Below, piece by piece: positions 6,357 through 44,415 of a DNA stretch of 64,000 nt. The stretch's first letter is position 1. Each line of letters begins with the position of its first letter. Below the pieces are notes generated by a model. The model ran no database searches, had not been told where the DNA came from, and was given only the letters and a program-made list of their open reading frames with translations. The DNA comes from Candidatus Cloacimonas acidaminovorans str. Evry (lineage in GTDB: Bacteria > Cloacimonadota > Cloacimonadia > Cloacimonadales > Cloacimonadaceae), in the NCBI RefSeq assembly GCF_000146065.2, contig NC_020449.1, positions 62,001 through 126,000 of the forward strand. Reading direction: 5' to 3'. Position numbers and translations under genes: made by a program.

Positions 6357-9300
6357 ATGAAAAAATCATTTTTACTGTGTCTCCTCATTTGCTGTTCTGC
6401 TTTTGCTTTTGGGCAATGGCATATAGATGAGGATTTTGAGGGTATTACAACCCTTCCTGCCGGTTGGATTACTTATGATGATGGTGATGGAATGACCTGG
6501 CGTAATTTGGAAAATGCCAGTCACGCACATTCTGGAACGCGTTTTGCTTTTGCGGATAACTATTTTCCCAATCAAAATTGCGATTGGTTGATTACTCCTC
6601 AATTGCATATTGCCAATGGAGATTCACTGAAATTTTACACTCGTGCCTGGTTTGACACTGAGAACTTGCAGGTTTATGTTTCAACAACCGGCAATGCCAT
6701 CAGCAATTTCAACACTCAAATATTGAATTTACAGGGCTTGGGAACTACTTTTCAATATGCAAGTTATAATCTTTCCGCTTATGCAGGACAGAATATTTAC
6801 ATCGGATTTAAATGGCAATGTGTTACTTACGGAATTATTGTAGACGATGTGAAAATAGGTCAACCCGTAATTGTAACTCCCGAATTAAACCTGCCTGAGA
6901 GTATTACTTTCTGGCAGGGGGAAACCATAACCGTAGATTTTACTCCCTATATTGTGGCTACGGATATAAACAATATTCAGCTTACCTGGCAAACTCCTGA
7001 ACATATAAGTATTTCTGCTACGGGTTTAGCTCTAACTTTTAGCAGTGATAACTGGAACGGAACGGAAAATATCACTTTTACTCTAACGGATAATATAACC
7101 GGTTTAACAGCTACGGATACTATGCAGATAATTGTGCATCCGATTCCAACTGTAGATATGGCATTGCAAACAATTTTATCGCCCGGAAATATGGTTTTTG
7201 TAAACTCTGCTTTTAACCCTACCGTTACGGTAAAAAATAACGGACAGATTTTGTGGGAAGACCAGCTGGAAATATTTTTCCAGGTCTATAATAGCCAGAA
7301 TGTTCTTGTAGAAAGTGTTTCTTCCTATTTTAATCCTGTTTTACAGCCAGAGGCAACTTTTGAAGCTGTCTTTCCCCCTCTCAGTATTAGTTCCGAAGGG
7401 GTTTATACCGGAACTTTTCAGATTAACATCAGCGATAACAATCCTACTAATGATACCATCAGCTGTGTATTCAATGTTATTTTAAGAGTAAATACAGGCG
7501 GACCCGATGCTTTTGGTTATCGCTATATAGATAGCACAGCAGAAAACGGTCCTGATTTCAATTGGATTGATATTAGTGCTACCGGCACTTCTACAATTAT
7601 GTATGGAGTGAATGCCTTTAACGGCGACGATAACTTTTCCGAACCCATTCCCCTTGGCTTTAATTTTCCCTTCTATGGTATTAGCTACTCTACCGCTTAT
7701 GTAGATATTAACGGAGAAATATTATTGGCACCAAATACCTGGTATACAGAATATCCTGATAACGGTTGGGGAAACGATGGCAATATGTTTAACTATATGT
7801 ATCCGATTCCAGGTTATTCTGCAATGCCAGGTTTGATAGCAGTTTACTGGGATGACCTGCATTGTGAGCAAGGCACTGGAGATATCTATTTTCAAAGCTT
7901 TGGAGAAGAGCCCAATCGTTATTGCGTAATTCAATGGCATAATTTGAGGTTTCATGCTGGAACCGGTGTTTCCACTCTGCTGGATTTTGAAGTTATTCTG
8001 CAGGAAAACGGAGAAATCATTATGCAATACAATTCTACAGCAACAGGACAAACAGGAGCAAATGTACCTCACGATAATGGAAAAAGCGCTACCGTTGCCT
8101 TACAAAGTGCAGATGCTACAATGGGAATTTGTTATTTGCGGGAAATTGTGCAAAATAATACTTATATCGGAGTTGAACCAGCGGGAAATTTACTTTTCAA
8201 TGGATTAGCCCTGCGTTTTTATAGCGGTGAAGACACACAAGCGCCTTTTATTACACATTCTGCTCCGGGAAACACTTTTAATCAGTCACCTCTGATAACG
8301 GCAAGAATATTAGACCTTTCCGAGCTGAATAATGTAACTTTGCATTATAATTTGGGTGAGGGCTGGAATGCTTTGGAAGGTATGGCAACAGGTAATGGCA
8401 ACTATGATTTTGCTTTGCCATTACTTCCTACAGGGCATACCTTTAGCTATTATTTTGCCGCTGCAGATGTCTGTGGCAATAGTTCAACTTTGCCTGCAGG
8501 AGCTCCAATAGAGGTCTTTCAATTCAAAATTCTGCCTTCGGAAAATACTTCTGTCTTGCTTGCCTATAGCGGAAAGCAGGATTATCAAAATACCGAACTG
8601 CCTGTTTATATAGAACAGCTCAATAATGCCAATATTGCCTACGACATTTATGATTGGGAAGAATTTGCCGAATATACAATTCCGAATACCTATTCTACTA
8701 TTCTGGCTTATGCCTGCACAGGCACAGCAAGTCCTGCTACCTTGTATTTATCACAGAAATTGATGGACTTTCTGAATTCCGGCACTATAGATAATCCTAA
8801 AAACCTGTTTTTCTCCTCCGATGGCTTTGCTTTCAGCCAATCGGGTACTCCTAATTCCCATCCTATGAAGCAATTGCTAAATGGTTATTTCCGAACTTTT
8901 GCTGTTTCTACAGGTGGTGGAGGCGGAACTAATGGTTTAGCAGGACCTGATGTTTTCAGCTATCAATCAGGCACAATTATGTGCACAACTTATTCTCCTG
9001 TAGGAACTATCGGCACAGAATACAGCGTTTATGCCAATAGCCCGGATTGTATTTTTGCCTATGATGAAGTTCCAGATTGGTATGCAGACCTTGTTCCCTA
9101 TCCGGAAATCGGAGCGATGAATGCTTTTGTGTTTGAAGACGGACCTGTAGAAGGTCATGCCTATTTATATCACGGGGTTTGTGCTACTGCTGTGCAAACA
9201 CCTATATTTAGGACTTTTTACTTTTCCTTTGATTTTTCCCAGCTGAATAATCCTGCTCAAAGAGAAGAACTATTTGCCGATTTAATGGACTGGTTTGAGG

Positions 9301-9617
9301 TTTATCCCACTTCCATTAACGAAAATGAACTGCCGATTGTGCAAAGCAAACTTCAAACAAACTATCCGAATCCATTTAATCCCGCAACGACAATTGCTTT
9401 TACTTTGGCAAAAGCGGATAAAGTGGAAATAGTTATCTATAACTTAAAGGGACAAAAAGTAAAAACCCTGCTTTCCGATAATCTGCTTGCGGGTAACCAT
9501 AGTATTGTTTGGGACGGTAAAGACGATAAAGGCAAAACCTTAAGCAGTGGAATTTATCTGGTGAAAATGAAAACCGGGAAAACCATAGACACCCGCAAAA
9601 TCACGATGCTCAAATAA
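6357..9617 (+). CDS. Secreted multidomain adhesin-like protein with type IX sorting domain
   Basis: 1086 residues. A signal peptide (MKKSFLLCLLICCSAFAFG) is followed by a choice-of-anchor J / MAM-like module at about 20-175 (DEDFEGITTLPAGW ... CDWLITPQLHIANG ... VDDVKIG). Ig/cadherin-like beta domains follow, then a large beta-rich centre. The last about 86 residues are a FlgD-like sorting domain: NYPNPFNPATTI, YNLKGQKVKTL, WDGKDDKGKTLSSGIYLVKM and terminal RKITMLK. It is expected to cross the outer membrane through a Por-type system and be surface-anchored or released. RBS AAGAGGTCTATT precedes ATG 6357. The next gene begins 11 bp downstream and also carries an anchor-J module, so the two probably form an operon. 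The binding target is unknown. Confidence 0.85.
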   Translation: MKKSFLLCLLICCSAFAFGQWHIDEDFEGITTLPAGWITYDDGDGMTWRNLENASHAHSGTRFAFADNYFPNQNCDWLITPQLHIANGDSLKFYTRAWFDTENLQVYVSTTGNAISNFNTQILNLQGLGTTFQYASYNLSAYAGQNIYIGFKWQCVTYGIIVDDVKIGQPVIVTPELNLPESITFWQGETITVDFTPYIVATDINNIQLTWQTPEHISISATGLALTFSSDNWNGTENITFTLTDNITGLTATDTMQIIVHPIPTVDMALQTILSPGNMVFVNSAFNPTVTVKNNGQILWEDQLEIFFQVYNSQNVLVESVSSYFNPVLQPEATFEAVFPPLSISSEGVYTGTFQINISDNNPTNDTISCVFNVILRVNTGGPDAFGYRYIDSTAENGPDFNWIDISATGTSTIMYGVNAFNGDDNFSEPIPLGFNFPFYGISYSTAYVDINGEILLAPNTWYTEYPDNGWGNDGNMFNYMYPIPGYSAMPGLIAVYWDDLHCEQGTGDIYFQSFGEEPNRYCVIQWHNLRFHAGTGVSTLLDFEVILQENGEIIMQYNSTATGQTGANVPHDNGKSATVALQSADATMGICYLREIVQNNTYIGVEPAGNLLFNGLALRFYSGEDTQAPFITHSAPGNTFNQSPLITARILDLSELNNVTLHYNLGEGWNALEGMATGNGNYDFALPLLPTGHTFSYYFAAADVCGNSSTLPAGAPIEVFQFKILPSENTSVLLAYSGKQDYQNTELPVYIEQLNNANIAYDIYDWEEFAEYTIPNTYSTILAYACTGTASPATLYLSQKLMDFLNSGTIDNPKNLFFSSDGFAFSQSGTPNSHPMKQLLNGYFRTFAVSTGGGGGTNGLAGPDVFSYQSGTIMCTTYSPVGTIGTEYSVYANSPDCIFAYDEVPDWYADLVPYPEIGAMNAFVFEDGPVEGHAYLYHGVCATAVQTPIFRTFYFSFDFSQLNNPAQREELFADLMDWFEVYPTSINENELPIVQSKLQTNYPNPFNPATTIAFTLAKADKVEIVIYNLKGQKVKTLLSDNLLAGNHSIVWDGKDDKGKTLSSGIYLVKMKTGKTIDTRKITMLK

Positions 9618-14594: not shown

Positions 14595-15730
14595 CTATTT
14601 CGCTTGCATAATTACGAGATATGATTATATTGTCTCCAGAGTTTACAAACTGGAGGTAAACATGAATCGTATCCATGTTAACGACACAATGTCTGCTGAT
14701 GAGTTAAAGTTAAGGATGTGCAACAGCAAAGATATTCAAGAGCACAATCGCTGGCAGGCATTATATATGGCAAAAGCGAAAGGATTATCGGCCCAGGAGA
14801 TAGCTGATATTATTGGAGTATCTAAATACACAGTCAATAAGTGGGTGTATAACTTCAATCATATGGGAGAAGAGAGTATATTTAGCCATAGTAGAGGTGG
14901 TAATCGCACTTCATTTCTCAGTTGGCAAGAGGAAGAAGAGCTTCTATCCGAGATTGGTAAACAAGCTGAAAAGGGTCTGTTGGTAGTTGTCAAAACGATC
15001 AAAGCAGAAATAGAAGCCAAGATAGGGAGGACAGTCTCCAAGGATTATCCCTATGATTTGTTGCATCGTCATGGCTGGAGAAGAGTAGTTCCTCGACCTA
15101 AACATCCCAAGCAAAATGCTGAAACCCAGGAAGACTTTAAAAAAAACTCCCGGAATACCTGGCAGCCGCCTCGCTAAGTTTTCAACCCGACGATACAAGA
15201 CCCATTCAGGTATTTTTCCAAGACGAAGCTCGCTTCGGAAGAATCAATACTCCTGTCGCCTATTGGTCTCCTAAAGGTCAGAGACCTACAGTTTCGAAAC
15301 AGATTGTAAGACAATATTTATATGCTTACTCAGCGGTGAATCCGGTAAGTGGTGACATCTTCTCTATCCTGGCTCCCAACTGCGATACCGATATTATGTC
15401 GTTATTCATTGAGAACTTCTCTAATGAGTACCAGGATTACCGAAACATTATGATTATGGATAAAGCTGGATGGCATACCACCAGCTACCTGAAAAGCTTC
15501 GATAATGTCCGATACATCTTCCTACCTCCATATAGTCCAGAATTGAATCCAACAGAACATCTGTGGGCAAAGATTAGAGACCTGAAGTTTAGAAACATAA
15601 CCTTCAATTCAATGAATGAAGTTATGAATGCTCTGATTGAGTGCTTTGAATACTTTGATGAAAACAAGGATATGGTCTCAAAACTAACTTATTTCAAATG
15701 GCTTAATTTGGATGTATGAAAGCGAATTGG
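14595..15730 (+). mobile_element. IS630-family insertion sequence, complete
   Basis: The element is 1136 bp with imperfect terminal inverted repeats: left CTATTTCGCTTGCATAA, right (reverse complement) CCAATTCGCTTTCATAC. TA dinucleotides flank it at 14593-14594 and 15731-15732, the target duplication expected of IS630/Tc1-type elements. It carries one transposase gene that needs a -1 frameshift. Boundaries were set by matching the two ends by eye. Confidence 0.8.
14662..15719 (+). CDS. IS630-family transposase (two frames joined by -1 frameshift)
   Basis: Frame A starts at ATG 14662 behind ACTGGAGG and encodes the DNA-binding half (KGLSAQEIADIIGVSKYTVN, helix-turn-helix). It ends at 15177. 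The run of eight A at 15139-15146 contains the slippery heptamer A AAA AAC in phase with frame A. A -1 slip there continues as KKLPEYLAAASLSFQPDD and then FFQDEARFG, IMDKAGWHTT and PPYSPELNPTEHLWAKI. These hold the first D, the second D and the E of the catalytic triad. The joined protein is about 352 residues, normal for the family. All catalytic residues and both IS ends are present, so frameshift-regulated activity is plausible; an inactivating indel is the alternative. Confidence 0.85.
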
Positions 15731-15732
15731 TA

Positions 15733-16145
15733 TAATCGCAGATCAGCTGATCAAAGTAGTGTCCACAGATCCTGATCAGATCTATGTGAAGACTAATCGC
15801 TACCTGGGGATATACGAGAAGACGCATGATCATAATCGCTGGAACTTTAATCAGGACAAAGCGATGATCTTACTGAAGGAAGTCGAAGCCACCAAACACA
15901 GAAACGTCCGAACGATCGCCAAGGCTATCGGAAAGTCCAGACAGTGGGTGTATATATATCTGGAGGCTCTAGCTTCAATCGGAGCAATTGAGAAAGTGGA
16001 CGGTTATTACCAGATTATCTCGAAAGAAAGAGTCTGGGCGATCGGATCGAATATTAAAAAGGGGATATTGAAGATAGAACGAACAGGAGCCAACGATCCA
16101 GTAATTACTGGCTCTATCAAAGCAAAGGTCGTTACGATATCCTAA
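15733..16145 (+). pseudogene. Winged-helix protein fragment, 5' end cut by IS630 insertion
   Basis: The frame is open from the IS630 right end (residues ADQLIKVV before a possible GTG at 15759) to TAA 16143-16145. It contains a clear helix-turn-helix with wing: RNVRTIAKAIGKSRQWVYIY, then LEALASIGAIEK and DGYYQI. The absence of a credible start, together with an IS end directly upstream, suggests that the N-terminus was removed by the insertion. No matching remainder was recognised left of the IS. Codon use (CGC, GCC, CTG) is richer in G+C than the neighbours, a sign of transfer. Function unknown beyond probable DNA binding. Confidence 0.5.
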
Positions 16146-16147
16146 TC

Positions 16148-16456
16148 TTAGTAACCCAATGTACTATAGCCCTTGATCAATCTACTATTTGGTTTCACGG
16201 GATAAGCCAAAACTTTGAGACCAGTAATACGGCTGACGAGACTGCCAATGTACGGATTGACACTATGTTCGTTTGATGCCCCGTTTGGTAAAGTGATCCA
16301 TGAGTCATATTCTTGCATGTAGTTATTCTCAATTTCCAAAAAAACCCGGTCAATGACGTCTGTTGGGTAGTGGCCGTTACTCCTTTCGATATCGGCAACA
16401 ATGTCTTCCACTATGCTCTTAATTTGCTTTAAATAGTCCTTTGGTATGGCTGGCAT
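16148..16456 (-). CDS. Hypothetical protein (102 aa)
   Basis: The start is ATG 16456 because GGAGGAAT lies directly upstream; a longer open frame to 16537 is not needed. The 102 residues include LKQIKSIVEDIVADIERSNG, then ITLPNGASNEHSVNPYIGSL and KVLAYPVKPNSRLIKGYS. There are no membrane segments, signal peptide or recognisable motifs. It converges with the winged-helix fragment, 2 bp between stops, inside the mobile block. Composition and a strong ribosome site favour a real gene; I do not recognise the family. Confidence 0.6.
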   Translation of the reverse strand: MPAIPKDYLKQIKSIVEDIVADIERSNGHYPTDVIDRVFLEIENNYMQEYDSWITLPNGASNEHSVNPYIGSLVSRITGLKVLAYPVKPNSRLIKGYSTLGY

Positions 16457-16897
16457 AATTCCTCCATTAATCATAAAGGTGACTGGACTTGGACTAAATT
16501 CATATCGAACCGAGGGTTCACAAGTGATATAAGTCATCCTCGCTAACCTGATCAGTTATCAGGAAATTCAATCTATTGCACTTCATATCAACTTGTCAAT
16601 CCTGTCAAGTTTCATTTTTTACCATCATAGCATCGCCTCGATAAATGGATGATAATAAGTTATATCACTATTGAGTTAACCTCACAAGGCTAAATACTGC
16701 TCAATGTAGATTAGGAATAAATGCATAATACTTACATCAAAACCGGAAATGCTCTAATAGCGAAAATCATTATCTGTTAGTGATTCAATAGACAGAAATG
16801 AAAATATGGCTAGTAAAGGGTATAAGTACCCCCCTACCAGAGATTATAAATAGCACTAAGCAAAAACTGGTAAAAGAAAAGATAAAAAAATATATAA
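16457..16897. other. Non-coding stretch in the mobile block
   Basis: No gene is supportable here. Near its right end, 16824-16836 reads AAGTACCCCCCTA, which resembles the AAAAAGTATCCCCC motif at 18039-18055 (inverted) and 19479-19494. It could mark the left end of the following transposable element. Confidence 0.5.
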
Positions 16898-18092
16898 ATG
16901 GGTGTTATTGAGACAGGTAGAGGGAATGCACCCGTTATGAATACCTATATTAAAAAAAATGGTTGCCATCTCGACAGGATATCGGGATATGCAACCGTTA
17001 TGAATACCTATATGGAAAACAAAATAATTATTGGTAGTCAGGATGTCGAGACTTATCGTCTGCAGATGGTTCAAGATGCGCTAAAATATGGAATTAAACC
17101 CTGCGCTCGCCAGTATCAGACAACGGTTAAAACAGTGCGTAAATGGGTAAAGCGATACCAACAATATAAGGAGGATGGTTTGAATGATCTTTCCCGTAAA
17201 AAAACACACTGTCTAATCAAGATTGATAAAGAAACAGAACTGCAGATTATTAAATGTCGCAAAGCTCACCCAGGTTGGGGTGCGAGAAGAATCAAAGAAG
17301 TCCTGGAACTCAACTTCTCGCATGTCTCTATCCATAGAGTAATCAAAGATGCTGGTCTGATTTTGCCGAAAAGAAAAAAATATAAGAAACGCAAAGATAT
17401 GCAGGAAGTCCGAAAACAAAAGAAAGTATTTAGCCGGTTCCAAATAGATATAAAATATCTAACCGATATTCCTGAATTCGAAATCTGGAGATGGGAACAT
17501 CATTTCCCTCTATATCTTATCTCTGCCAGGGATTATAAAACCGGTGCTATCTATCTTGCTTATAGCTACGAAAAATCATCTACTGCTACAGCTCTGTTTA
17601 TCAACTACTTGCTCTCTTCTCTTCAAAACTATGGCATAAATCCTCAAACTATTATTATCCAAACTGATAATGGAAAAGAATTCATTAATCCTACTGACCG
17701 AAAAGTAACTTTATTTGAAAAAATAGTAAAGGAAAAATATCAGGAAACTCATTTTCTTATCCCCTACCGAAGACCTACCTGGAATAGTGATGTGGAGTCC
17801 TTTCATAACATTATTGAAGAAGAATTCTTTATCTTAAGAAAAACCGAATAATGAAACCGAACTCTTGGCTAAAACTTTCGCCTACCAAATCTGGTTCAAT
17901 TCTTATAGAAATAATAGAGGTAGAAATAATCAAAACCCTGAACAAATCTTTCAATCTGAATTGAATACTGATAAACCTATTCCCCTGATTCCTCCAATTA
18001 TTGTTGACAATTATATGCATCTGCTAGGAAAGGATATTAAGGGGGGATACTTTTTACCTTTACCACCCAATTTTTTAGGAAAAAGAACTTGA
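16898..18092 (+). pseudogene. rve/DDE-type transposase (IS481/IS3-like), frameshifted
   Basis: The main frame ends at TAA 17849-17851. A +1 shift in the A5 run at about 17840 restores ETELLAKTFAYQIWFNSYRN and carries on to 18092. The N-terminal half has a helix-turn-helix (GIKPCARQYQTTVKTVRKWV). The integrase core has RFQIDIKYL (first D), QTDNGKEF (second D) and SDVESFHNIIEEEFF (E). The probable start is ATG 17012. Upstream a 24-bp sequence, ATGCAMCCGTTATGAATACC plus four bases, is duplicated 63 bp apart (16927-16950 and 16990-17013). Catalytic residues lie before the shift, but the C-terminal segment is out of frame, so the element is probably inactive. Confidence 0.7.
18039..18055 (+). repeat. 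Inverted repeat, left copy, flanking DUF6884/GIY-YIG cassette
   Basis: AAGGGGGGATACTTTTT is the reverse complement, save one base in the C/G run, of AAAAAGTATCCCCCTT at 19479-19494. It overlaps the final codons of the frameshifted transposase. The pair encloses 18282-19455. Confidence 0.6.
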
Positions 18093-18281: not shown

Positions 18282-18719
18282 ATGGATGTAATAGGTTTAG
18301 TTCAATGTGGAGCGCAAAAAAAGGCAACAGCTGCTCCTGCAAAAGATCTGTATAATTCAAGTTTATTTAAAAAATCTAAAAGTTTCGTTGAATCTAAGTG
18401 TGACAAATGGTTCATACTCTCTGCTAAATATGGATTATTGCTTCCGGAACAAGTTGTAGAACCATACAATGAAACTCTAAAATCATACAGCGTTAAAGAA
18501 AGAGCTATATGGGCAGAATCGGTATTTGAAGATATTTCTAAGCACATTAACTCGGGAGATAAAATAATCTTTTTGGCAGGAAACTGCTACAGGCAATTTC
18601 TTATTCCCAAATTACAGGCAATGGGTATTCAGATTGAAGTTCCAATGAAAGGTCTTAGAATTGGAGAACAACTACATTATTTGGATGTTCAGAATCAAAG
18701 AAATAACTATGGAAAATGA
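18282..18719 (+). CDS. DUF6884-like protein
   Basis: 145 residues. It has the pattern VQCGAQKK near the N-terminus, then DKWFILSAKYGLLLPEQVVE and PYNETL, followed by IFLAGNCYRQFLIPKLQ. This looks like the DUF6884 / YaaA-related group, small proteins found in phages and accessory islands and linked to base or nucleotide chemistry; that family call is from pattern memory. The ATG at 18282 has only a weak ribosome site. The stop overlaps the next gene by 11 bp, so the two are translationally linked. The pair lies between short inverted repeats next to a transposase, which points to recent acquisition. Confidence 0.6.
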   Translation: MDVIGLVQCGAQKKATAAPAKDLYNSSLFKKSKSFVESKCDKWFILSAKYGLLLPEQVVEPYNETLKSYSVKERAIWAESVFEDISKHINSGDKIIFLAGNCYRQFLIPKLQAMGIQIEVPMKGLRIGEQLHYLDVQNQRNNYGK

Positions 18720-19455
18720 TATTGATTTACTCTATGAGTATCTACGAATCTTAGAAATAGGATTAAATGGGAAGAGGATCTTGAAACTATGTAATGGTCG
18801 GCAAATATTGCCGAAACAAGGGGTCTATTTTTTCTTTGAACCTGGTGAAATTAGATATAATAAAAACGATTTAAGAATTGTCCGGGTAGGAACACATGGA
18901 GTTAGTATAGGATCGAAATCTACTTTATGGGGCAGATTAAGAGCCCATAAAGGAACATCTAAAGGGTTTGGAAACCATCGCTCCTCAGTATTTAGATTGC
19001 ATATAGGAGCAGCTCTTATGAATAAGTATCCAGAGCTATTCATAGAGACCTGGGGGAAAGGACAGAATGCTAATCAAGAGATAAGAAGTAAGGAAAGTGA
19101 ACTTGAACAAAAGGTATCTGAATATATTGGATCAATGTCTTTCCTTTATTTGTCAATTATTGACGAAGCAACTTCTTCAAGTGATAGAGCTTATATAGAA
19201 AGAAATACAATCGGTTTACTATCTTGTTTAAATGGTAATAAAGATATGCCTTCTACGGGATGGCTCGGTCTGTATAGCAAAAATATAAAGATAAGGGAAT
19301 CTGGATTATGGAACTTAGATTATGTAAAATATCAGTATGATCCTGATTTTCTTGATGTTTTTAAAGAATATGTTTCAATAACTCTGGGTAAAACATCAAA
19401 TCCTGACAAACCTCTTGCACCACCAAACTGGAAGTTCAAGATAAACAATAAATAA
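18709..19455 (+). CDS. GIY-YIG-type nuclease-like protein
   Basis: The start is ATG 18709 (overlapping the previous gene by 11 bp), giving 248 residues. The GIY-YIG fold is suggested by QGVYFFF (G38-Y40), IVRVGTH (about 57-63, in place of YIG), LWGRLRAHKG (R76) and RAYIERNTIGLLS (E164 as the expected metal ligand). HRSSVFRLHIGAAL fits the central helix. Such domains cut one DNA strand or act in repair, restriction or homing. The partner DUF6884-like gene and mobile context suggest a defence, modification or selfish cassette. No signal peptide or membrane segment is visible. The fold is moderately sure; the role is not known. Confidence 0.6.
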   Translation: MENDIDLLYEYLRILEIGLNGKRILKLCNGRQILPKQGVYFFFEPGEIRYNKNDLRIVRVGTHGVSIGSKSTLWGRLRAHKGTSKGFGNHRSSVFRLHIGAALMNKYPELFIETWGKGQNANQEIRSKESELEQKVSEYIGSMSFLYLSIIDEATSSSDRAYIERNTIGLLSCLNGNKDMPSTGWLGLYSKNIKIRESGLWNLDYVKYQYDPDFLDVFKEYVSITLGKTSNPDKPLAPPNWKFKINNK

Positions 19456-20262: not shown

Positions 20263-22260
20263 ATGAATAGACAGATCAGCATTATCGTATACATATTTTT
20301 ACTGTTGGCTGTTTTGCCAGTATGGGCTCAGGAACTTACAGGTTTCGATGTCCAGAGGGTAAACCGACGTTATGAGATTACCTACAGAATTGATAACTTT
20401 TCCTGGGGTGATCGTTTCGATGTATTCTTTTTTGCCAGACCTGATGAAAATTCCGCTTGGTTCAAACTAAGGGCATTGGTGGGCCAATATCGCAATGTGG
20501 AGAGTAGTAATTCGTATAAAGTGCTCTGGGAACCGATTCTTGATCTGAAGGAGAATCGTAGCTACCAATTACGCCTTTTCGCAGTAAATCACAGATATCT
20601 GGGCTGGGATTATGACTACAACAAAATTAATGAAATAGGCCTGGCTTACCCTATAAGCAATCTTCAAGGTGTATCTTATCTCATCAACGGAGCAGAACTG
20701 AACTCATCGGTTCCGGTCGCGTTACCGGTTGGTAGCTATGAATTTAGCATTACCAAAGACGAAGTGATTCGTGGTTATAGCGAGGTTGATGTTCTGCCCT
20801 TCCGTTATATAGAACCGGAATTGGAATTCCAGGACGGCACCATCACTCTTACCTGCTCCGAGCCAGGTAGCACAATTAAGATAGACGGTAAGAGCCAGAC
20901 CCCGGTGGAAAACATGAATATCCCTATCGGTATTCACCAGATCGAAGTGATTCCTCCAGCGGACGTGAAAGCCCTGGGAATTAAAAGCTTTACCGAGACC
21001 ATCCACATTGATCCATTCGAGAATGTCGTTCGCGAATTCAGTTTCCCTTATGGTAAACTCAGTCTCACCAGCAATGAAGAAAATACTGAGTATTGGATAA
21101 ATGAAACCCGTTATTCCAAAATCCATGACTTGAAGCTTAATCCGGGAACCTACATTGTTACTGCTAAAATTAATCCTACAGCTAACCCAGGTTACCAACT
21201 GGAAGAGACGTTCATCATTGTTCCAGGATCCGATATCAAGCATAATTTCGAGTTCAAATACGGCTTTATCACATTTAACGATAGATTTGAGACGAGTTCT
21301 TATCAGATAGACGATAACAGATATTTGACTACACCTAAAGATGTTAAGTTATTAATTGGTGATCACAATTACTATGTGTTCCCTCCTTCTCCCTACAAAA
21401 ATCTGAGCGGTAGCTTTCATCTGGAAGAGGGCGACCACTATTCTAAAACGCTCATATTTGTTAAAGATCCTGATCTGGTTCGACAGGATCAGCGTCAAAG
21501 ATTTTTCCGCACCACTCAGGTTCTTTTATCCCATATAGAAGTTGTGCAAATTTTCCGCATCGGTAAAGCTGATGACAGCGAAGATACAGCATCTTCAAAT
21601 GACTACCAATCATTGGCCACTGGCTTATCCATCAACGGTATGTTTGCACACTCAATGCATTACAAGGATGATGTTGCCCAGTCCCATTTGATCAAGTATC
21701 CCACTACATACTGGGGCTTGGGCTTACTGGATAACTTTACTGCAGCCATAGCTCAAGACAATAGCAAACCGGTTCTCTGTTATGACTGGGTAGCTGGTGT
21801 GTTTGGCGTGAATATGCTTAATGATCGAGGAACAATATTCGGTAATTGGGAAATAAAAGCTACCTATGGTGGTCAGACACTTATTCACCCCAGCATGAAA
21901 GTAAACGGAGTAGAATATAAATATGTGCGCAAGTTTCGCGAAGAAAAATCCGAGGACGCCTCGGAAACCGACAAGCCAGATCGCTATATAAGCACATACT
22001 CTCTAGGTCAAGTTGCCATGGAGTCGAACTTGAGTATAGGTATCTCCAGCGGTAAAGCTGGATATCTGTATCTCTTCGGAGGAGCAAGATACCAAGGGGA
22101 CTTCGGTGGAGGATGGTATCGTAGTGATGATATACATAACTGGGACACATTTGTAAGTGATAAACCCTCCGAGGTGTTCCTGCCAGAATTGCCTAAACGA
22201 AATGTAATCTACGATAGATTAACCTTCAAATTTGGCATCGGAATCAGATTGCCAATTTAG
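20263..22260 (+). CDS. Exported PEGA-like / beta-barrel-ending protein
   Basis: 665 residues, start ATG 20263 behind AGGAGG. Signal peptide ends ...LPVWA-QEL. Several Ig-like segments follow; one (PGSTIKIDGKSQTPVENMNI, then PIGIHQIEVIPP) fits a PEGA-type cell-surface repeat, and related repeats occur at about 270-310 and 345-375. The last about 250 residues alternate polar and hydrophobic positions with many Gly/Tyr (YLYLFGGARYQGDFGGGW, FKFGIGIRLPI), as in an outer-membrane barrel. It ends 34 bp before the PorE-like gene and shares its richer G+C codon use, so the two probably work together in the envelope. I do not recognise a named family for the whole protein. Confidence 0.65.
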   Translation: MNRQISIIVYIFLLLAVLPVWAQELTGFDVQRVNRRYEITYRIDNFSWGDRFDVFFFARPDENSAWFKLRALVGQYRNVESSNSYKVLWEPILDLKENRSYQLRLFAVNHRYLGWDYDYNKINEIGLAYPISNLQGVSYLINGAELNSSVPVALPVGSYEFSITKDEVIRGYSEVDVLPFRYIEPELEFQDGTITLTCSEPGSTIKIDGKSQTPVENMNIPIGIHQIEVIPPADVKALGIKSFTETIHIDPFENVVREFSFPYGKLSLTSNEENTEYWINETRYSKIHDLKLNPGTYIVTAKINPTANPGYQLEETFIIVPGSDIKHNFEFKYGFITFNDRFETSSYQIDDNRYLTTPKDVKLLIGDHNYYVFPPSPYKNLSGSFHLEEGDHYSKTLIFVKDPDLVRQDQRQRFFRTTQVLLSHIEVVQIFRIGKADDSEDTASSNDYQSLATGLSINGMFAHSMHYKDDVAQSHLIKYPTTYWGLGLLDNFTAAIAQDNSKPVLCYDWVAGVFGVNMLNDRGTIFGNWEIKATYGGQTLIHPSMKVNGVEYKYVRKFREEKSEDASETDKPDRYISTYSLGQVAMESNLSIGISSGKAGYLYLFGGARYQGDFGGGWYRSDDIHNWDTFVSDKPSEVFLPELPKRNVIYDRLTFKFGIGIRLPI

Positions 22261-22294
22261 TATGACTGTTTGACAAAGATGAATGGGAGAACCA

Positions 22295-24628
22295 ATGAAA
22301 AATATTAAAACTCAGATATATATAAGCATCTTATGCCTTTTGCTGACTGGAAGCCTGTTTTGCGCCAGCGTCAACGAAATCAGTTTCAATGTCCGCCAAT
22401 TGCGTGAGTTTCTCACCTACACTCCGGATCTGGATGGCCAGATTCTCAGTGCTGCTGACAGTCTTGTTATCCAAAACCGTAAAGCTGAAATCCAGCAGGA
22501 GATCAATGCTCTGCTGGCTTCCAGCCGCGAGCGCTACACTGTGGAGGATATCACAGTGCTGGGCTATCTTCAAGACCAAGGCGTGCTCTCTATTGAAAAC
22601 CGGGAGTTCAAACGCAATATGAAGATCCGGATGTCGCAGGAGGAGGCAGAAGTCGTGACCAGCCACCCCGGTAACTTCTATCTGGAAGCTTTGCGAGAAC
22701 TGGATCAAAACCTGAGTTGGGTCTATTACAACTGGACCCTCAAGGGCTACAACACCATATATTATGAAGAGGAAGAAGAGATCAACAACATCCCCGAAAT
22801 TGAGTTGGTCTCCATCAACCCGGAAACAATGTTCGACATCTCCTACCAGCTATATAAACAGAATCAAACCGCCAAAACTGCCCTGGAAAACTACCAGGAT
22901 GGTGATTACAGAGTTTCGCTGAACCAATTTCTGGCTGAAGTACGCACCGGAGACATGCCTGCCACTCATTATTTCTGGATTGCTATGAACTATCTGGAAC
23001 TGGGGGAGATCAGCAATGCCAAGTATTATTTAGAACAATATCTTCAAACCTTTGACCCGAATTATGTGACCATAGCACAGCACTACCTGGATTTGATCGC
23101 GGAGCAAGAGAATGTCTTTCGCCGGGTTCAGGTCAATGAGAATCCAATCTACCTCTCCAGTGACGAGGGAGAATCCCATTTTACCGTCAGTCCCGATGGA
23201 ACCTATCTATATTTCTGTTCCGGACGTCCAGCCGCTTTTGCGAAAACCAATATCTGGAGAGCAGAGCGTTTGAACAATTCCTGGGCTTATCCAGAGCTCG
23301 TGGAAGCTCTCAGTACAAATAGCGACGAAGCGCTTTGTTCATTCTCCTCCAATGGTATGCGTGCCTACTTGATGGGAAAATATGAGCAAGGCAGGCAGGA
23401 CTATGATATCTACACCAGTGATGATAAAAACGGTTGGACCAGTCCCGTTCGTCTGACCGCAGTCAACAGCGACCAGCAGGAAATTGATCCCTATGTCTAT
23501 CAGGACCGCTTGATGCTATTCAGTTCAAACCGTCCAGGCGGCTTTGGAGGTTATGACATCTATCTAAGTATCTACAACGACGGCAGTTGGCAGCGCCCAT
23601 TCAACCTGGGGGCTAATGTCAACACCGCAGGTGATGAAATTGCTCCCTTCCTGGATTGGGATGGCAAGACCATTTTCTTTTCCAGCAACGGCTATCGCGG
23701 TTTTGGAGGATATGACATTTACAAGGCAGTGGTACTGGATGGAGAAGCAAAGACCTGGTCCCGGGCCGAAAATGTTGGAGCTCCGGTCAATTCTGCTTAC
23801 AACGACAGAGCTTTCTATCACCTGCGCAATTCCAATGAAGCCATTTTGCTTTCAGACCGTGCCCGGAGAGGCGTTTTAGGTATACACCCTCTCAGCCTTG
23901 AATACGCACCCCGATCCTACTTTATCAAGGACAGCGATGGTCAGGTCAAACGTGTGCAGGATAAGGACAACACCTCACCACTCAGCGGATTGCTTACCCA
24001 AGAGGTGGAAGAGGAGTATCTGGAGATTTGGGGAACTGTGCTCAATGATAAAAATGTTCCAGTGCAGGCGGAATTGCGTTTCAGTTACGACCGGGACGGA
24101 ATTCATTATCACGATCTGGCAAGACCGGACGAGCAGGGAAACTATTCCATATATTTGCCAGTCAGCAAGGAGTATATCCTTGATACCAATCCCAGCGGTT
24201 ACTCTATGTATTCCACCAGAATCAAACCGCCTAGTCAAAGCAGCCGAGTTCGTCAAGATCTGCGATTGGAACCTCTGGATCTAGATAAAGTATTCGTGTT
24301 CAGCAATATCCAATTTGACTATGACAGTGCTGTCCTGAAGGCAGAATCATATCCGATTCTCAATGAGATTGCCCTCACGCTTCTGAACAACCCCACAATT
24401 CGGGTCGAAATTTCCGGCCACACTTGCGAGAACCAAGGTGGAGAGAAGTATAACACCACATTGTCTGAAAACCGTGCTGCCGCTGTATTAAGTTACCTGA
24501 AGGGAAAGGGCGTTAACGCAAACAGGATGATCTCGGTTGGTTATGGTCTCAGTCGTCCCCTGAACAACAATCTCTCCGAAGAAGACAAAGCCCTGAACCG
24601 ACGAGTGGAAGTCAAGATCATCAAATAA
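22295..24628 (+). CDS. PorE-like TPR / PD40 propeller / CRD / OmpA-family protein
   Basis: The start is ATG 22295, four bases after GGGAGA; a GTG-free upstream ATG at 22283 lacks a ribosome site. About 777 residues. The signal peptide ends at ...GSLFCA. A TPR-like region (about 195-260, NYLELGEISNAKYYLEQYLQ) precedes WD40/PD40 blades with repeated SSNRPGGFGGYDIY and SSNGYRGFGGYDIYKA. A carboxypeptidase-regulatory-like beta domain lies near 575-650. The C-terminus is an OmpA peptidoglycan-binding domain (FDYDSAVL, ISGHTCENQGGEKYN, LSENRAAAVLSYL, NRRVEV). This order is that of PorE, the peptidoglycan-linked component of the type IX secretion system. Codon use is clearly richer in G+C than the surrounding genes. 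A general OmpA-like stress or motility lipoprotein is the alternative. Confidence 0.8.
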   Translation: MKNIKTQIYISILCLLLTGSLFCASVNEISFNVRQLREFLTYTPDLDGQILSAADSLVIQNRKAEIQQEINALLASSRERYTVEDITVLGYLQDQGVLSIENREFKRNMKIRMSQEEAEVVTSHPGNFYLEALRELDQNLSWVYYNWTLKGYNTIYYEEEEEINNIPEIELVSINPETMFDISYQLYKQNQTAKTALENYQDGDYRVSLNQFLAEVRTGDMPATHYFWIAMNYLELGEISNAKYYLEQYLQTFDPNYVTIAQHYLDLIAEQENVFRRVQVNENPIYLSSDEGESHFTVSPDGTYLYFCSGRPAAFAKTNIWRAERLNNSWAYPELVEALSTNSDEALCSFSSNGMRAYLMGKYEQGRQDYDIYTSDDKNGWTSPVRLTAVNSDQQEIDPYVYQDRLMLFSSNRPGGFGGYDIYLSIYNDGSWQRPFNLGANVNTAGDEIAPFLDWDGKTIFFSSNGYRGFGGYDIYKAVVLDGEAKTWSRAENVGAPVNSAYNDRAFYHLRNSNEAILLSDRARRGVLGIHPLSLEYAPRSYFIKDSDGQVKRVQDKDNTSPLSGLLTQEVEEEYLEIWGTVLNDKNVPVQAELRFSYDRDGIHYHDLARPDEQGNYSIYLPVSKEYILDTNPSGYSMYSTRIKPPSQSSRVRQDLRLEPLDLDKVFVFSNIQFDYDSAVLKAESYPILNEIALTLLNNPTIRVEISGHTCENQGGEKYNTTLSENRAAAVLSYLKGKGVNANRMISVGYGLSRPLNNNLSEEDKALNRRVEVKIIK

Positions 24629-24863: not shown

Positions 24864-25262
24864 ATGACCAGTCCTCTCGGAAACCAAATTTGTGAAGTGT
24901 TACTGAACTTGCAAGGATATTGTGCAACCAATCTAACCGAAGAAGAGTATCAAGGCACCAAGGAAGTGCATATACCCATTAAAAGCACCAGGCAGAATAT
25001 GTGCCCGAAGTGTTATAAACCATTGCCCATATATGATACTAAAATAAGGCACATAGGGCATGCTTTAATATCTTGTCGTTCAGTGGTATTGGCCGTAACC
25101 CTCAGGCGAACTCAGTGTCCTGTATGTGGCGTCAATACTGAATATCAGGCATTTTGCCAGTTGATAAAAGCAATTAACCCAGCACAAATAATCAGGCAAA
25201 AAGCCATAAATCAGAACCTATGGGGGATTGTGACTTGTTTCGCCAAACAAAATATTGTTTGA
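24864..25262 (+). pseudogene. ISL3-like transposase, N-terminal zinc-ribbon stub
   Basis: 132 residues from ATG 24864 behind AAGGAGC. Two CxxC pairs (MCPKCYKPL and QCPVCGVN) flank IRHIGHALISCRSVVLAVTL. This is the layout of the N-terminal zinc-binding region of ISL3-family transposases. The DDE catalytic domain is absent; the frame stops at TGA and nothing similar follows. It is a truncated relic with an intact 5' end. Confidence 0.55.
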
Positions 25263-25405: not shown

Positions 25406-26800
25406 ATGAAACGGAGCCACTATCTTTTTATAACTATCTGGCTAATGGCTATGGCTGCCCTATTGGGAGCTCAAGAAACGCCACAAATAGTAGATGTTGA
25501 TCAATTACCCTTTAGTGTCGGTGATGTCTCCGATGCCGTAGTGATGGGCAACTTCTGCTATATAAATACTTGCCTGCCATTTTACCTAGTAAAGATAGAC
25601 CTCTTAACTAAAGAGGTAATCTGGCAACAACCCAATTCTTATACTGGGAGTCCTGGATATAGTTTAGTCAAGACCCCTGATGGAAATTTGTGCTATAGCG
25701 ACGGATCAGAAATTGTTAAGATAACACCCAATGGCGATATATGCTGGTCTCGTGACTTAAGTTCTTATAGTAGTTGCATTTCCATATCTAATACGAGCAA
25801 TAATTTTTTAACATGTTATGGTAATTATAGCAATTTAATTCTGTTAAACTATGAAAACGGCGCTATCCTAGGAAACTGGGCTATTCCGACAGGAGGAAAT
25901 CACTACTCTTATCATTTTGCTATAGCTAGTTCTGATTCTATCTTTTACTGTTTTGACAATACTAGTCATGGCACAACTTCTAATACCGCTATTAAACTAA
26001 CCAAGGTCCAGATTAATACTGCGGCAGAAGTTATCTGGAGTTTTGAGGTGCCAGATTTATTACAGCCCGTAGGTTTAGTAGATGATAACATCATCTACTT
26101 TGGCGGCCAACAATTAGATCCCTGGACAAATACTCTCCTGTATAAAATTGAGGATATGGGAGACAATTACCAACTGGTATCTACCACTGACATAGCTGGA
26201 CCGGACACTACCGCCCATGTCCATCACCTTCTACTTAATAACCATGAGCTATTGCTTTCCTGTCTTATTGTTTTAGGAGATGACCCTAATGGACAAGATG
26301 GCAGTGCTTTATCAATGTTCTGCTATAACCAGAATATGAACCTGGTCTGGCAAATCTCTCAAAATATCCTGCCATTTTTTGTCACCCAGGCCGTAGCTTT
26401 ATCTGATGATGCCGCTAAACTCTATGCTATTTCTATCTATCGGCAAACTTATAGTGGTCCAGATACCAACTGGCTCACTGAAATTAGTTTGCCAACCCCG
26501 GTCACGGATCCAGTCCTTACTCCTAATATTAATGATGTCTGCTATCCTAATCCCTTTAGAAATAGCACCACCATTAAATTTGAGATGAATAGCCCTGCCA
26601 GCACCAGCATTGCGGTATATAACATTAAAGGACAAGTGGTTCGCCATTTAGTGCAGTCCTAAAAATTTAGTCCTGGAGAACAAACTATTCTCTGGGATGG
26701 TCAAGATGACCGCGGGCGGACAGTGCCAGCAGGAATCTATTTTTATAAGATTAACAGTGGAGGGTATTGCTCCAGTAAGAAAATGGTCTTAATAAAATAA
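25406..26800 (+). pseudogene. Secreted beta-propeller-like protein; stop codon inside sorting domain
   Basis: The start is ATG 25406 behind AAGGAGGTGG, with a signal peptide ending LLGAQ-ET. The body (about 25-370) resembles a propeller of repeated blades (VVMGNFCYINTCLPFYLVKI, KTPDGNLCYSDGSEIVKITP). The sorting domain starts CYPNPFRNSTTIKFEM and continues YNIKGQVVRHLVQS. It is then cut by TAA at 26660-26662. In the same frame the missing part follows directly: KFSPGEQTILWDGQDDRGR, AGIYFYKINSG and final KKMVLIK to TAA 26800. A single CAA-to-TAA change would explain it. Without the domain the 418-residue product should not be sorted by the Por system. Confidence 0.8.
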
Positions 26801-26857
26801 AACAAAAACCGGAATCAAAATATTAGATTTAGATTGGGAGTTCTATCTTTCTTCTTA

Positions 26858-27262
26858 CGAGGGGCTTACGCCACCATCGCTATCGTTGTGTCGCCCTTTG
26901 GGCTTTTAAGGAATCTCAACCATATAAACTCTCTAAACCTTCTCAACCCTCTAAACTTTCTCAACCCTTTTTTCCGAGGGGCTTACGCCACCATCGCTAT
27001 CATTGTGTCGCCCTTTGGGCTTTGAAGGAATCTCAACCATATAAACTCTCTAAACCTTCTCAACCCTCTAAACTTTCTCAACCCTTTTTCCCGAGGGGCT
27101 TACGCCACCATCGCTATCGTTGTGTCGCCCTTTGGGCTTATTGGCAGAGGGCAAAGGGCAGAGAGCAAAGGGAATCTCAACCATATAAACCCTCTAAACT
27201 TTCTCAACCTTCTCAACCCCATTTTCCGAACCCATCGCTATCATTGTGTCGCCCTAAAGGGT
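26858..27262 (+). repeat. 117-bp tandem repeat (about 3 copies) of the dispersed GGGGCTTACGCC element
   Basis: CGAGGGGCTTACGCCACCAT starts at 26858, 26975 and 27092, exactly 117 bp apart. Each unit has the ~50-bp dispersed element (ending TCGCCCTTTGGGCTT) followed by TCTCAACC/CTCTAAAC short repeats. A fourth, shortened copy begins near 27232. It is not a CRISPR, because the inter-repeat segments are near-identical. The rest of 26801-27398 is non-coding. Confidence 0.85.
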
Positions 27263-27398
27263 TTTCAGAGAGTAAAAAGACATCAGCAACTTATACTACC
27301 TATTATAAAAACAGGAGTGGATATGGTCAACCAACAATTTCCTTGACATAGTGTTTGCCTGAAAAAATGAATAATTATTGTAAGAAGAGGTGAGAATA

Positions 27399-30953: not shown

Positions 30954-33518
30954 TTATAAGACCATTATTTTACGGTTAATGGGTTTTTCGCCTTGAACCT
31001 TTATTTTCAGGAAATAAATGCCGGCAGAACTGCGTTTGCCTCTATTATCTATTCCCTTCCAGAGAAAGTTCTTTTCGTCCTGCAGGTTTTTTCTAAATAC
31101 CAATTGCCCTTTCAGGTTGTAAATTTCTATGAGGGCAGAACTGTTTTCCGCATTTTTAACTTCCACTATAAGAGCCGAGCCAGAGTTAAAACTAACCGGA
31201 TTGGGATATACATCTACGCACATAGGTTTCTGAATGAGGTCTTCATTACCCACATAATATACTGTAACACAGTTGCTTGGTTCGGATTCATTTATTCCGT
31301 CCGTAGCAGTTACATAAAAGTAAGTAGTAATTTGAGGATTAAAATCAGTAACGATATAATCGCTTTGAGAGAAAGGAATTTCGCCTATTAGAGCATCGTT
31401 TTTATAAATACGGTAAGAAGTCCAGCTCAAATTTCCCTGTGCGGGTGCCTGCCAAAAAAGATGAATTTGGTCATCAATATCGGGCTCAAAAGCCAGAAAA
31501 GAAGGGTTTTCACTTAGCGGTTCAGGCATAAATAAAGTAACATTTCCTGTAGTTAAAGGGTCATTATTGCCTGGGAGGTAAATAATGTTTTCCCTGGCAA
31601 TGTTGTAATGATTTTGGTAATGGAAAAGTTCTTCAGCAATTCCTTTTATTCTTTTATCTACAACATATCCGAATGAATCCTTACGGGTAAAAAGCAAAAA
31701 TGCAGGGGTAGAAATATCTGTAACACAATTAGTAACCTGCACATCAGTAGTAAAAGTGATATTGCCAGGATAGATAACCTCAGTTTGCTGCCAGCTATCT
31801 CCCGCATTGATATTCAGATACTTTTTATATACAGTGCCCAAAGGCAGTTCTGTTGTCACTTCTCCGGCAGGAGTTCGCCAGATATTTCTTTTCAGGTAAA
31901 GATAATCACCTGCAGGATAAACCCAGTCCAATTTATCATAGCTGTATAAACCCCAACCTGTCAGCAAAGGATATAGCGTTAAATTACCCTCCTGATTCGG
32001 TTCTCCTACATATTCATAGCGAGAAAGAGGAATATCAGTAACTTCAACTATGCCGATATAAACTGAATTTCCAGGCGCAGGAGAAAAAACACCAGGATTA
32101 ATATAACCACCGGCACAGCCATAAAGTTCTTTTCCGGTTCCCGTTTCGGTTAAAACAACCTGCGCATAAAAATCCTCGGAAATATTTGCCTGAACGGAAA
32201 AATCAGCTGTGGGAAGAGGAATGGATACCTGAACAATTCCGTTAGCTACTGCAATTAATTCCAAGCGCGCATTGGTAATTTGTGCTGTTCCAGTATAAAT
32301 ATAACTGCCTGTGATGATTGTATTTTGCACAGGAATAATAAAGGGTTCAAAATCTACAGTCGGCAAAGCGGAATTATCATTGTGGTCATTTATCGTTAAG
32401 GCAATTTCTGCTGCCGTAGCAAACCCCCAATTATTATTTTCCGCCATAATAATGAAGCTGGCATTAGGATAAGCATCGCAATAAACGGAATTATTGTGAT
32501 TGTTAACATCAATATTATTGATAATGGTATTTTCGCCCTGAGCCCAAATATGATTTAAAGTTAGGTCTCCTAAAACAGGTTTGCCATTATTAGTAATGTA
32601 AAAACCGGTATAATTACCCTCAATATGATTGCGTTCAAAATAGGGCACGGAAGTTACTCCCGAAACCATTACTCCTGCTCCGGAATTCATATCTCCAGGA
32701 ATAAAATTGTAGTTAATTTGATTATCAGCTACATAACCTGATGCCTGCAAAAGATAGATTCCGGTGTAGTTATACTCAATGATATTATGCAAAATTTGCG
32801 GATTGATAGAACCCGAAGAAGCAATATCCCAAGCCGAAATTCCCTGCTTGTAGTTGTGATGAATATGGTTATATAAGATATTGGGATTGCACTGATTTAC
32901 GCCTGATTGATTGCCCATTTGAATAGCTGCCCGAAATTGAGCTCCCGTTCCATTATAACGGATTTCATTGTATCTGATATAGGCATTGCTATTGGAAGTG
33001 ACAAGAATCGCATTTTGGGTGCAGTTTTCAATTAAACAATACTCCACTACATTAGGCAAAGGAACTGCAGAACCGATGCCATAAAACTCCATTCCTTTTT
33101 CACATAAGTTTATATGACAGTGAGAGATAGCGATAGGGGAATTGATAGTGCGCACTCCATAAGTGGCATATTCCAGATAAACATAATTCAAATGACTGGT
33201 ATGCTGCAGATTTTCAAAACGCAAACCAGGCCAAAGTGCAGTCGGATTTGCCTGCATATTTAAAATTCGGATACTATCTACCTCAGTTCCATAGGCATTT
33301 AATATTCCCTCTACGGTAATTTGATAGGAGCCCAAAAGGTGAATTTCTACCCCTGCCTGAATAATTAAAGAATCGGATGCAGGAACAGTTATTGCTCCAA
33401 TTACTTCGTAAGGATTGTTTACAGGAGACCAAACTCCGCTTTGATTTCCGCTTACCTGAATGGCAAAATTCAGGGAAATGAGAGTTGTAATAAAAAGAAT
33501 AAGAAATAAGCGCTTCAT
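30954..33518 (-). CDS. Secreted right-handed beta-helix protein with type IX sorting domain
   Basis: The start is ATG 33518 because GGAGGTGATT lies just upstream; an in-frame GTG at 33527 falls inside that site. 854 residues. The signal peptide ends ...LNFA. Residues about 30-400 show a parallel beta-helix of the pectate-lyase/NosD kind, with many short N/H-rich turns (YCLIENCTQN, ILYNHIHHNYKQGISAWD, HNIIEYNYTGIYLL). An FN3-like module (HLFWQAPAQGNLSWTSYRIY) precedes the sorting domain: VYPNPVSFNSGSAL, YNLKGQLVFRK, WKGIDNRGKRSSAGIYFLKI and RKIMVL. Probably a surface or released polysaccharide-interacting protein; no catalytic residues can be assigned. Confidence 0.85.
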   Translation of the reverse strand: MKRLFLILFITTLISLNFAIQVSGNQSGVWSPVNNPYEVIGAITVPASDSLIIQAGVEIHLLGSYQITVEGILNAYGTEVDSIRILNMQANPTALWPGLRFENLQHTSHLNYVYLEYATYGVRTINSPIAISHCHINLCEKGMEFYGIGSAVPLPNVVEYCLIENCTQNAILVTSNSNAYIRYNEIRYNGTGAQFRAAIQMGNQSGVNQCNPNILYNHIHHNYKQGISAWDIASSGSINPQILHNIIEYNYTGIYLLQASGYVADNQINYNFIPGDMNSGAGVMVSGVTSVPYFERNHIEGNYTGFYITNNGKPVLGDLTLNHIWAQGENTIINNIDVNNHNNSVYCDAYPNASFIIMAENNNWGFATAAEIALTINDHNDNSALPTVDFEPFIIPVQNTIITGSYIYTGTAQITNARLELIAVANGIVQVSIPLPTADFSVQANISEDFYAQVVLTETGTGKELYGCAGGYINPGVFSPAPGNSVYIGIVEVTDIPLSRYEYVGEPNQEGNLTLYPLLTGWGLYSYDKLDWVYPAGDYLYLKRNIWRTPAGEVTTELPLGTVYKKYLNINAGDSWQQTEVIYPGNITFTTDVQVTNCVTDISTPAFLLFTRKDSFGYVVDKRIKGIAEELFHYQNHYNIARENIIYLPGNNDPLTTGNVTLFMPEPLSENPSFLAFEPDIDDQIHLFWQAPAQGNLSWTSYRIYKNDALIGEIPFSQSDYIVTDFNPQITTYFYVTATDGINESEPSNCVTVYYVGNEDLIQKPMCVDVYPNPVSFNSGSALIVEVKNAENSSALIEIYNLKGQLVFRKNLQDEKNFLWKGIDNRGKRSSAGIYFLKIKVQGEKPINRKIMVL

Positions 33519-33682
33519 TTTAATCACCTCCTCTAAAGTTTAATGTTATTGCCTTACTCTTCGCTAAATTATACTCATACTTGAAAATATAATAAAATAT
33601 TAGAAATTGCATTCCGCGTGGCAAATCGGAATTTGGCATCCCGATTTGCCACTTTGGGAAATTATAACTATTTTTAATTCAG

Positions 33683-41099: not shown

Positions 41100-41927
41100 A
41101 TGAACAATAATGAATATGAATTATACCTTGGTGATGCTCTGGAAATTCTGCAAACAATAGAAAAAGAGTCAATTGATTTAATAGTAACATCTCCTCCTTA
41201 TGCAGATAGTAGAACTAATACCTACGGGGGCATAAAACCGGATGAATATAATGAATGGTTTCTTCCCATAACACAAGAACTTTTAAGAATTCTAAAACCC
41301 ACTGGAACATTCATTTTGAATATCAAAGAAAAAGTTGTTAACGGAGAAAGACATACCTATGTGATAGAATTGATTTTGAATATGAGAAAACAAGGATGGC
41401 TTTGGACAGAAGAATTTATTTGGCATAAAAAGAATTGCTATCCGGGAAAATGGCCTAACAGATTTCGGGATGCATGGGAAAGATTATTACAATTCAATAA
41501 AAACAAATTCTTTAAGATGTATCAGGAAGAAGTAATGATTCCTATAGGTGACTGGGCAGAAAAACGACTTTCTAACTTAAGCCATACGGATAAAATTAGA
41601 GATACTTCCAAAGTAGGCAGTGGTTTTGGCAAAAATGTATCCAACTGGGTTGGTAAAGATAAGGTCTATCCTACAAATGTTTTACACTTGGCTACTGAAT
41701 GCGGTAATAAAAATCATAGCGCAACTTTTCCTTATGCTTTGCCGGAATGGTTTATTAAACTATTTACCAGACCGGGTGATGTGGTCTTAGACCCTTTTAT
41801 GGGTTCGGGAACTGCTGTTTTTGCTGCTTTGAATATGGGGAGAAAAGCAATAGGAATAGATATAAATCCTGAATATTATAACTTAGTTTTAGGGAAAATT
41901 CAAAATCAGCAACAAGTATTGTTTTAA
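41100..41927 (+). CDS. Type II DNA methyltransferase, beta class (TSPPY)
   Basis: 275 residues. Motif IV TSPPYADSR lies at the N-terminus (about 30-38), and the AdoMet-binding motif I DPFMGSGTAVFAAL lies near 240. This is the permuted order of beta-class amino-methyltransferases. The SPPY form is most often N4-cytosine, but N6-adenine cannot be excluded. AGGAGG sits 12 bp upstream of ATG 41100. The endonuclease gene starts 12 bp after its stop, so this is a standard modification-restriction pair. It protects host sites from that nuclease. Confidence 0.9.
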   Translation: MNNNEYELYLGDALEILQTIEKESIDLIVTSPPYADSRTNTYGGIKPDEYNEWFLPITQELLRILKPTGTFILNIKEKVVNGERHTYVIELILNMRKQGWLWTEEFIWHKKNCYPGKWPNRFRDAWERLLQFNKNKFFKMYQEEVMIPIGDWAEKRLSNLSHTDKIRDTSKVGSGFGKNVSNWVGKDKVYPTNVLHLATECGNKNHSATFPYALPEWFIKLFTRPGDVVLDPFMGSGTAVFAALNMGRKAIGIDINPEYYNLVLGKIQNQQQVLF

Positions 41928-41939
41928 GCGAGGTTATTC

Positions 41940-42671: not shown

Positions 42672-42846
42672 TCAGCATTATTCTGTTTTAACCCAAATAA
42701 TGCATTCGGGAAAAATGGGTTTGCAAATTCCGATTTGCCAACGAAATTTAAGGTTTCTAAAGGAACTTATACTTTCCTTGAACTATGGGTTTACACCTCC
42801 ATCGCTATCATTGAGGGTTTTGACCTACAATTTTCACTCGCGGGGA
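42672..42846. repeat. Degenerate intergenic repeats
   Basis: CACCTCCATCGCTATCATTG near 42789 is a degraded piece of the dispersed GGGGCTTACGCC element. GTTTTGACCTACAATTTTCA near 42817 is a direct repeat of the start of the island's left inverted repeat at 42847. Confidence 0.5.
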
Positions 42847-43327: not shown

Positions 43328-43343
43328 AAGAAAGGAGAGAACA

Positions 43344-44414: not shown

Positions 44415-44415
44415 A

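Follow-up and report, generated by a model that had tools for sequence, protein, structure and literature searches.

A PorE-like protein with a caspase-associated N-terminal domain and a predicted outer-membrane partner in Candidatus Cloacimonas acidaminovorans

Outside Bacteroidota, how is a gene to be understood whose product shows the domain order of PorE, a component of the type IX secretion system? Such a gene lies in a 64,000-nucleotide stretch of the Candidatus Cloacimonas acidaminovorans genome (here called the window), within a single 2,246,820-base contig (C1). A preliminary description took the product to be a PorE-like type IX secretion component, on the strength of the succession TPR, PD40 propeller, carboxypeptidase-regulatory-like domain (CRD) and OmpA domain. 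This succession is borne out by Pfam for the propeller and the OmpA domain (the CRD being weak there) and by an AF2 model, in which pLDDT is mostly 85-95 across all four parts and the propeller matches five-bladed GH43 propellers. The protein also has a signal peptide and, ahead of the TPR helices, a further domain (the N-domain) that had gone unremarked and for which AF2 model confidence is low (Table 1). The start codon at 22295 (777 aa) has a better Shine-Dalgarno sequence, GGGAG, than that at 22283 (781 aa).

Table 1. Features of the window bearing on the PorE-like gene and its surroundings
Feature	Position	Strand	Basis
Sorting-domain gene	6357-9617		TIGR04183, 38.7 bits
DDE_3 and HTH transposase fragments	14662-17851		
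Partner, 665 aa: signal peptide, Ig-like domain, PEGA-like repeats, predicted C-terminal outer-membrane barrel	20263-22260	+	AF2 model
N-domain and PorE-like protein, 781 aa	22283-24628	+	ORF, profiles, AF2 model
N-domain, residues ~30-195 (~165 residues)	22370-22867	+	Common to CARDB-caspase proteins; model made without the window
TPR region, residues ~180-276	22820-23110	+	AF2 helices 180-275; Pfam TPR weak, in the G073 homologue
PD40 five-bladed propeller, residues ~279-549	23117-23929	+	Pfam PD40 4e-16, over cutoff; AF2 model
CRD, residues ~579-662	24017-24268	+	Pfam CarbopepD_reg_2 weak, below cutoff; AF2 model
OmpA C-terminal domain, residues ~670-781	24290-24625	+	Pfam OmpA 8e-19, over cutoff; AF2 model
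ISL3-type transposase zinc-ribbon fragment, just downstream of the pair	24864-25262	+	Pfam Zn_ribbon_ISL3 weak, below cutoff
Sorting-domain gene, stop inside sorting domain	25406-26662		TIGR04183, 24.9 bits
Sorting-domain gene	30954-33527		TIGR04183, 42.4 bits
Sorting-domain gene	47657-50551		TIGR04183, 37.3 bits

Is the protein then PorE itself? Its best profiles are those of PorE and CHU_0125, not of generic OmpA proteins, and the two score equally within a small margin: 186.1 bits for the NCBIfam model T9SS_PorE (cutoff 600) and 189 for the top match, CHU_0125 (cutoff 620). The PorE model gives 183-359 bits for eight homologues (seven from Bacteroidota, one from Balneolota), all below 600, so the cutoff shuts out these homologues too. 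PorE is a lipoprotein in which the side chains of Asp576, Asn584 and Arg591 bind DAP (PMC7192894). No lipobox was found in the window protein (its SLFC is not one) or in 30 Cloacimonadota rows of the alignment, although the pattern is a weak one, matching only 7 of the 65 other rows. The window equivalents of the three DAP-binding residues are Cys715, Asn724 and Arg731, so that two are kept; the Asp576 column holds Asp in all 65 rows outside Cloacimonadota, and within the phylum Asp in 12, Cys in 14, Trp in three and Glu in one. No PorP exceeded its cutoff in nine Cloacimonadota genomes (one 19-bit match was seen in G065), the positive controls, two Bacteroidota genomes, giving 12 and 5 matches. 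A PorP gene beside the Bacteroidota homologues was also considered, and the two upstream genes scanned proved to encode FolD and an acyltransferase. Together with the triplet-linked gene at another locus described below, these differences leave identity as PorE unsupported: judged from its sequence, the window protein is a PorE-like protein, and what stands of the original proposal is a PorE-like protein outside Bacteroidota in an organism with genuine type IX machinery.

The narrow lead of the CHU_0125 model suggests another role, as a general stabiliser linking outer membrane to peptidoglycan and unrelated to secretion; chu_0125 encodes a Pal homologue whose loss is reported to prevent crystalline cellulose degradation (PMC5891637). 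We think this improbable for the window protein, in which Cys replaces the DAP-binding Asp and a lipobox is lacking, and whose N-domain and partner would have no place in such a scheme.

The type IX machinery itself is found in part. SprA/Sov exceeds its cutoff in all 59 Cloacimonadota genomes sampled (here at C1:1333201-1338435), and PorU does so in this genome (575 bits, cutoff 420), where its model matches some 45 further places, most of them corresponding to the PorU tail, that is, to sorting domains. There are two PorV/Q-like proteins, one of 85.1 bits (subfamily cutoff 90) and one of 72.9 bits beside a PorU2-like gene; PorU2-like and PorV2-like genes adjoin at G000:C1:477469-482813 (L089). 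The four substrates with type IX-like sorting domains noted earlier in the window all exceed the TIGR04183 cutoff of 23 bits, one being interrupted by a stop. On the other side, besides PorP, the GldL and GldM profiles found nothing in 17 Cloacimonadota genomes, in which SprA is universal; the GldL search lacked a positive control, and the GldM model detected its family in four control genomes and missed it in two others, from Ignavibacteria and Balneola, so that a diverged motor is possible in Cloacimonadota. With this survey, direct evidence of type IX machinery extends across a phylum for which a 2024 paper listed the system only as possible (PMC11285876).

If the window gene is not PorE, does the genome have a better candidate? 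A second PorE-like gene, at C1:1878678-1881413, belongs to a triplet, in which it follows a gene for a giant sorting-domain protein (open frame of 6463 aa, G000:C1:1882532-1901905; L052:12532-19809, L090:3-12905) and the gene for the 85-bit PorV/Q-like barrel. Relatives have similar giants, and the triplet, or as much of it as the contig holds, occurs in nearly all of their 17 loci examined; at L058 the barrel gene is uncalled, and at L070 barrel and PorE-like parts form one ORF. This fused 767-aa ORF (L070:9464-11767, in G013) supports a physical link between the PorV/Q-like and PorE-like proteins of the triplet. In Cloacimonadota, PorE-like proteins may have PorV/Q-like barrels as their working companions in place of PorP. 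The window gene adjoins neither a giant sorting-domain gene nor a PorV/Q-like barrel gene. The likelier PorE counterpart of this genome is the gene at C1:1878678-1881413, whose product retains the DAP-binding Asp; the window gene, a paralogue of sparse distribution, stands outside the triplet.

What does adjoin the window gene is the partner, which ends 22 bases upstream of the 22283 ORF. Its AF2 model (pLDDT 78, pTM 0.37) comprises an Ig-like domain (~25-110), about four PEGA-like repeats (~125-375; the Pfam PEGA match is weak and below cutoff) and, with low to moderate confidence, a barrel of ~8 strands (~418-662) resembling NspA (TM 0.52 by target length). Assignment to the PorP or PorV/Q barrels was rejected, there being no family match and ~8 modelled strands vs 14. 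A model of its homologues from which the window was left out recovers the partner at E 1.3e-51, and the partner's N-terminus is matched at E 1.7e-10 by one made from the Ig part of FGE-sulfatase neighbour proteins (see below). Partner homologues also occur in G014 and G006, each directly behind genes for an M16 peptidase and a small lipoprotein (L081:5240-10789, L084:7979-13557); homologues of these two are present in the window (27390, 28059) some kilobases downstream of the pair and in a different order, that of the peptidase being 6 kb downstream of the partner.

It is conceivable, though we consider it unlikely, that the pair serves type IX secretion as a specialised component, in which a paralogue of PorE uses a barrel partner of its own to anchor a particular set of sorting-domain proteins. 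A model for this exists in the PorE-PorP-PG1035 complex and the adjacent porP-like and porE-like genes of Bacteroidota, PorE-PorP anchoring a type B substrate (PMC9143113), and the idea is in keeping with the machinery in the genome, the four sorting-domain genes of the window and the occurrence of homologues in the triplets of relatives. It fits less well with a partner outside the PorP and PorV/Q families that has too few modelled strands, with the lack of an intact sorting-domain gene directly adjoining the pair, and with the presence of the pair in few genomes when SprA is in all those sampled.

The N-domain offers a different line of evidence. A model made from 22 caspase-type N-domains, with the window excluded, finds residues 63-171 of the window protein, alone among 364 proteins, at E 1.2e-18. 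Residues 1-249, searched against 50 genomes of the family, gave a near-full-query match in G073 and partial matches in G038, G065 and again G073; more widely, the domain is present in 22 of 125 Cloacimonadota genomes searched, and in none of the eight other genomes of the window's genus. Apart from the window copy and that at L183, the copies examined carry a match to the caspase model (weak at L232, with 50 bits; L229 is cut off). At L183, in G073, a full-length partner homologue (26% identity) stands directly before a gene for an N-domain-TPR-PD40-CRD protein, the frame of which ends ahead of the OmpA domain, where only two bases of the 4-kb contig are left, and at L184, L186 and L187 a partner homologue adjoins an N-domain-CARDB-caspase gene. 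From these three caspase-type pairs and one other PorE-type pair we conclude that the window genes belong to a conserved two-gene unit, not recognised in the preliminary description, which by its sequences consists of a predicted outer-membrane partner and an N-domain protein ending either in a caspase or in a PorE-like scaffold.

Most caspase-type N-domain genes adjoin an Ig-FGE-sulfatase or DUF4384 gene, not the barrel partner; at L185, for example, it is an FGE-sulfatase gene that comes after the N-domain-caspase gene. N-domain-CARDB-caspase genes with intact His-Cys motifs stand beside Ig-FGE-sulfatase and DUF4384 genes across L184-L187, L217-L231 and L233-L236, and the three together make up an envelope gene group that recurs in Cloacimonadota. 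No description of it was found in the titles and abstracts of papers linking DUF4384 to caspases, among them surveys and reviews of orthocaspases.

Where did the window pair come from? Its G+C-rich codons, already apparent from inspection, are confirmed: GC3 is 0.346 +/- 0.049 over window genes and rises to 0.540 in 22283 and 0.437 in 20263. Divergence of codon usage from the organism's own is 0.198 and 0.090, respectively, a value that in 24 other own ORFs of more than 500 aa goes no higher than 0.080. With each of ten relatives taken as codon reference, the two genes fitted it better than all 83 other own ORFs in nine cases, the exception being the low-GC G002. The foreign usage, stronger in 22283 than in 20263, thus resembles that of higher-GC Cloacimonadota. 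In a tree from which the N-domain had been cut off, the PorE cores of the window and G073 group together (100/99) as sister to the family's triplet-type PorE-like proteins, and the genome's own triplet copy falls elsewhere among Cloacimonadota. Import from Bacteroidota was rejected, the Cloacimonadota PorE-like proteins being one group (SH-aLRT 93; 100/100 in a smaller tree). The simplest reading is that the pair was probably acquired from a related, higher-GC member of the phylum; the earlier suggestion of an acquired or second copy is probably right, and the IS remnants said to surround the pair are indeed present (Table 1). The window also has three to four 117-base tandem repeats at 26852-27268, and two low-GC stretches, 18282-19455 with a DUF6884 gene and 41100-44976 with genes for a DNA methyltransferase and an antitoxin-like regulator.

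Might the pair be a decaying passenger of an acquired island, now without function? The IS fragments and broken sorting-domain gene nearby, the long branch, and the absence of the N-domain from the eight other genomes of the genus could be so explained. We nevertheless regard this as very improbable, with frames of 665 and 781 codons intact, a ribosome-binding site present and the window protein included in an alignment with 39 invariant columns.

We therefore return to the two-gene unit. From the domain anatomy, the shared N-domain, the conservation of the pair, the tree position and the codon bias, we infer, with about an even chance of being right, an operon for an envelope-spanning scaffold. 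On the AF2 model, the partner would sit in the outer membrane by its C-terminal barrel, its Ig and PEGA-like domains reaching into the periplasm. The PorE-like protein, on this reading derived from those of the type IX triplets, would be a periplasmic scaffold docked on the partner through its N-domain, for which docking is the most likely role because a partner-type gene stays adjacent when the C-terminus is a caspase. Other envelope proteins, which might be type IX components or substrates, would be held by the TPR, propeller and CRD, and a contact with peptidoglycan, perhaps a weak one, would be made by the OmpA domain. This reading is favoured by the non-circular detection of the N-domain, the adjacent pairs at four loci besides the window, the 100/99 clade, the partner model and the codon fit. 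Counting against it are that the only other PorE-type pair is on a short contig and ends before OmpA, that most caspase-type genes have other neighbours, that the peptidoglycan-binding Asp is lost, and that the N-domain is modelled with low confidence.

More tentatively still, and on balance we doubt it, Cloacimonadota may have a modular envelope system in which one docking domain and outer-membrane partner are fitted with either a caspase-like protein or a type IX PorE-like scaffold. If so, secretion scaffolds and caspase-type responses would use one common outer-membrane platform. The domain swap in any case links PorE-like scaffolds to caspase-like envelope proteins, and gives a testable idea of how type IX scaffolds have diversified outside Bacteroidota.

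Among known systems, PorE (PG1058) of Porphyromonas gingivalis shares with the window protein the order of TPR, five-bladed propeller, CRD and OmpA domain, two of three DAP-binding side chains, and a genomic setting that includes Sov, PorU and sorting-domain proteins; the window protein differs in its extra N-domain, in having Cys for the DAP-binding Asp and no lipobox, in a barrel partner that is not PorP, and in its low profile score. The CHU_0125 family of Cytophaga hutchinsonii belongs to the same PD40-OmpA superfamily and scores equally, but no N-domain is described for it, and CHU_0125 is described as a putative peptidoglycan-associated lipoprotein. The triplet PorE-like proteins (C1:1878678-1881413, and L054-L067 in relatives) are homologous to window residues ~195-781, with ~40% identity for the relatives' copies and 31% for the genome's own, but are without the N-domain and have as neighbours the two other triplet members, giant sorting-domain protein and PorV/Q-like barrel. 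The N-domain-CARDB-caspase (C14) proteins (L184-L187, L217-L231) have the same N-terminal domain and, at L184, L186 and L187, an adjoining partner homologue, and differ from the window protein in ending in a caspase-like region with intact His-Cys motifs rather than in a PorE-like scaffold.
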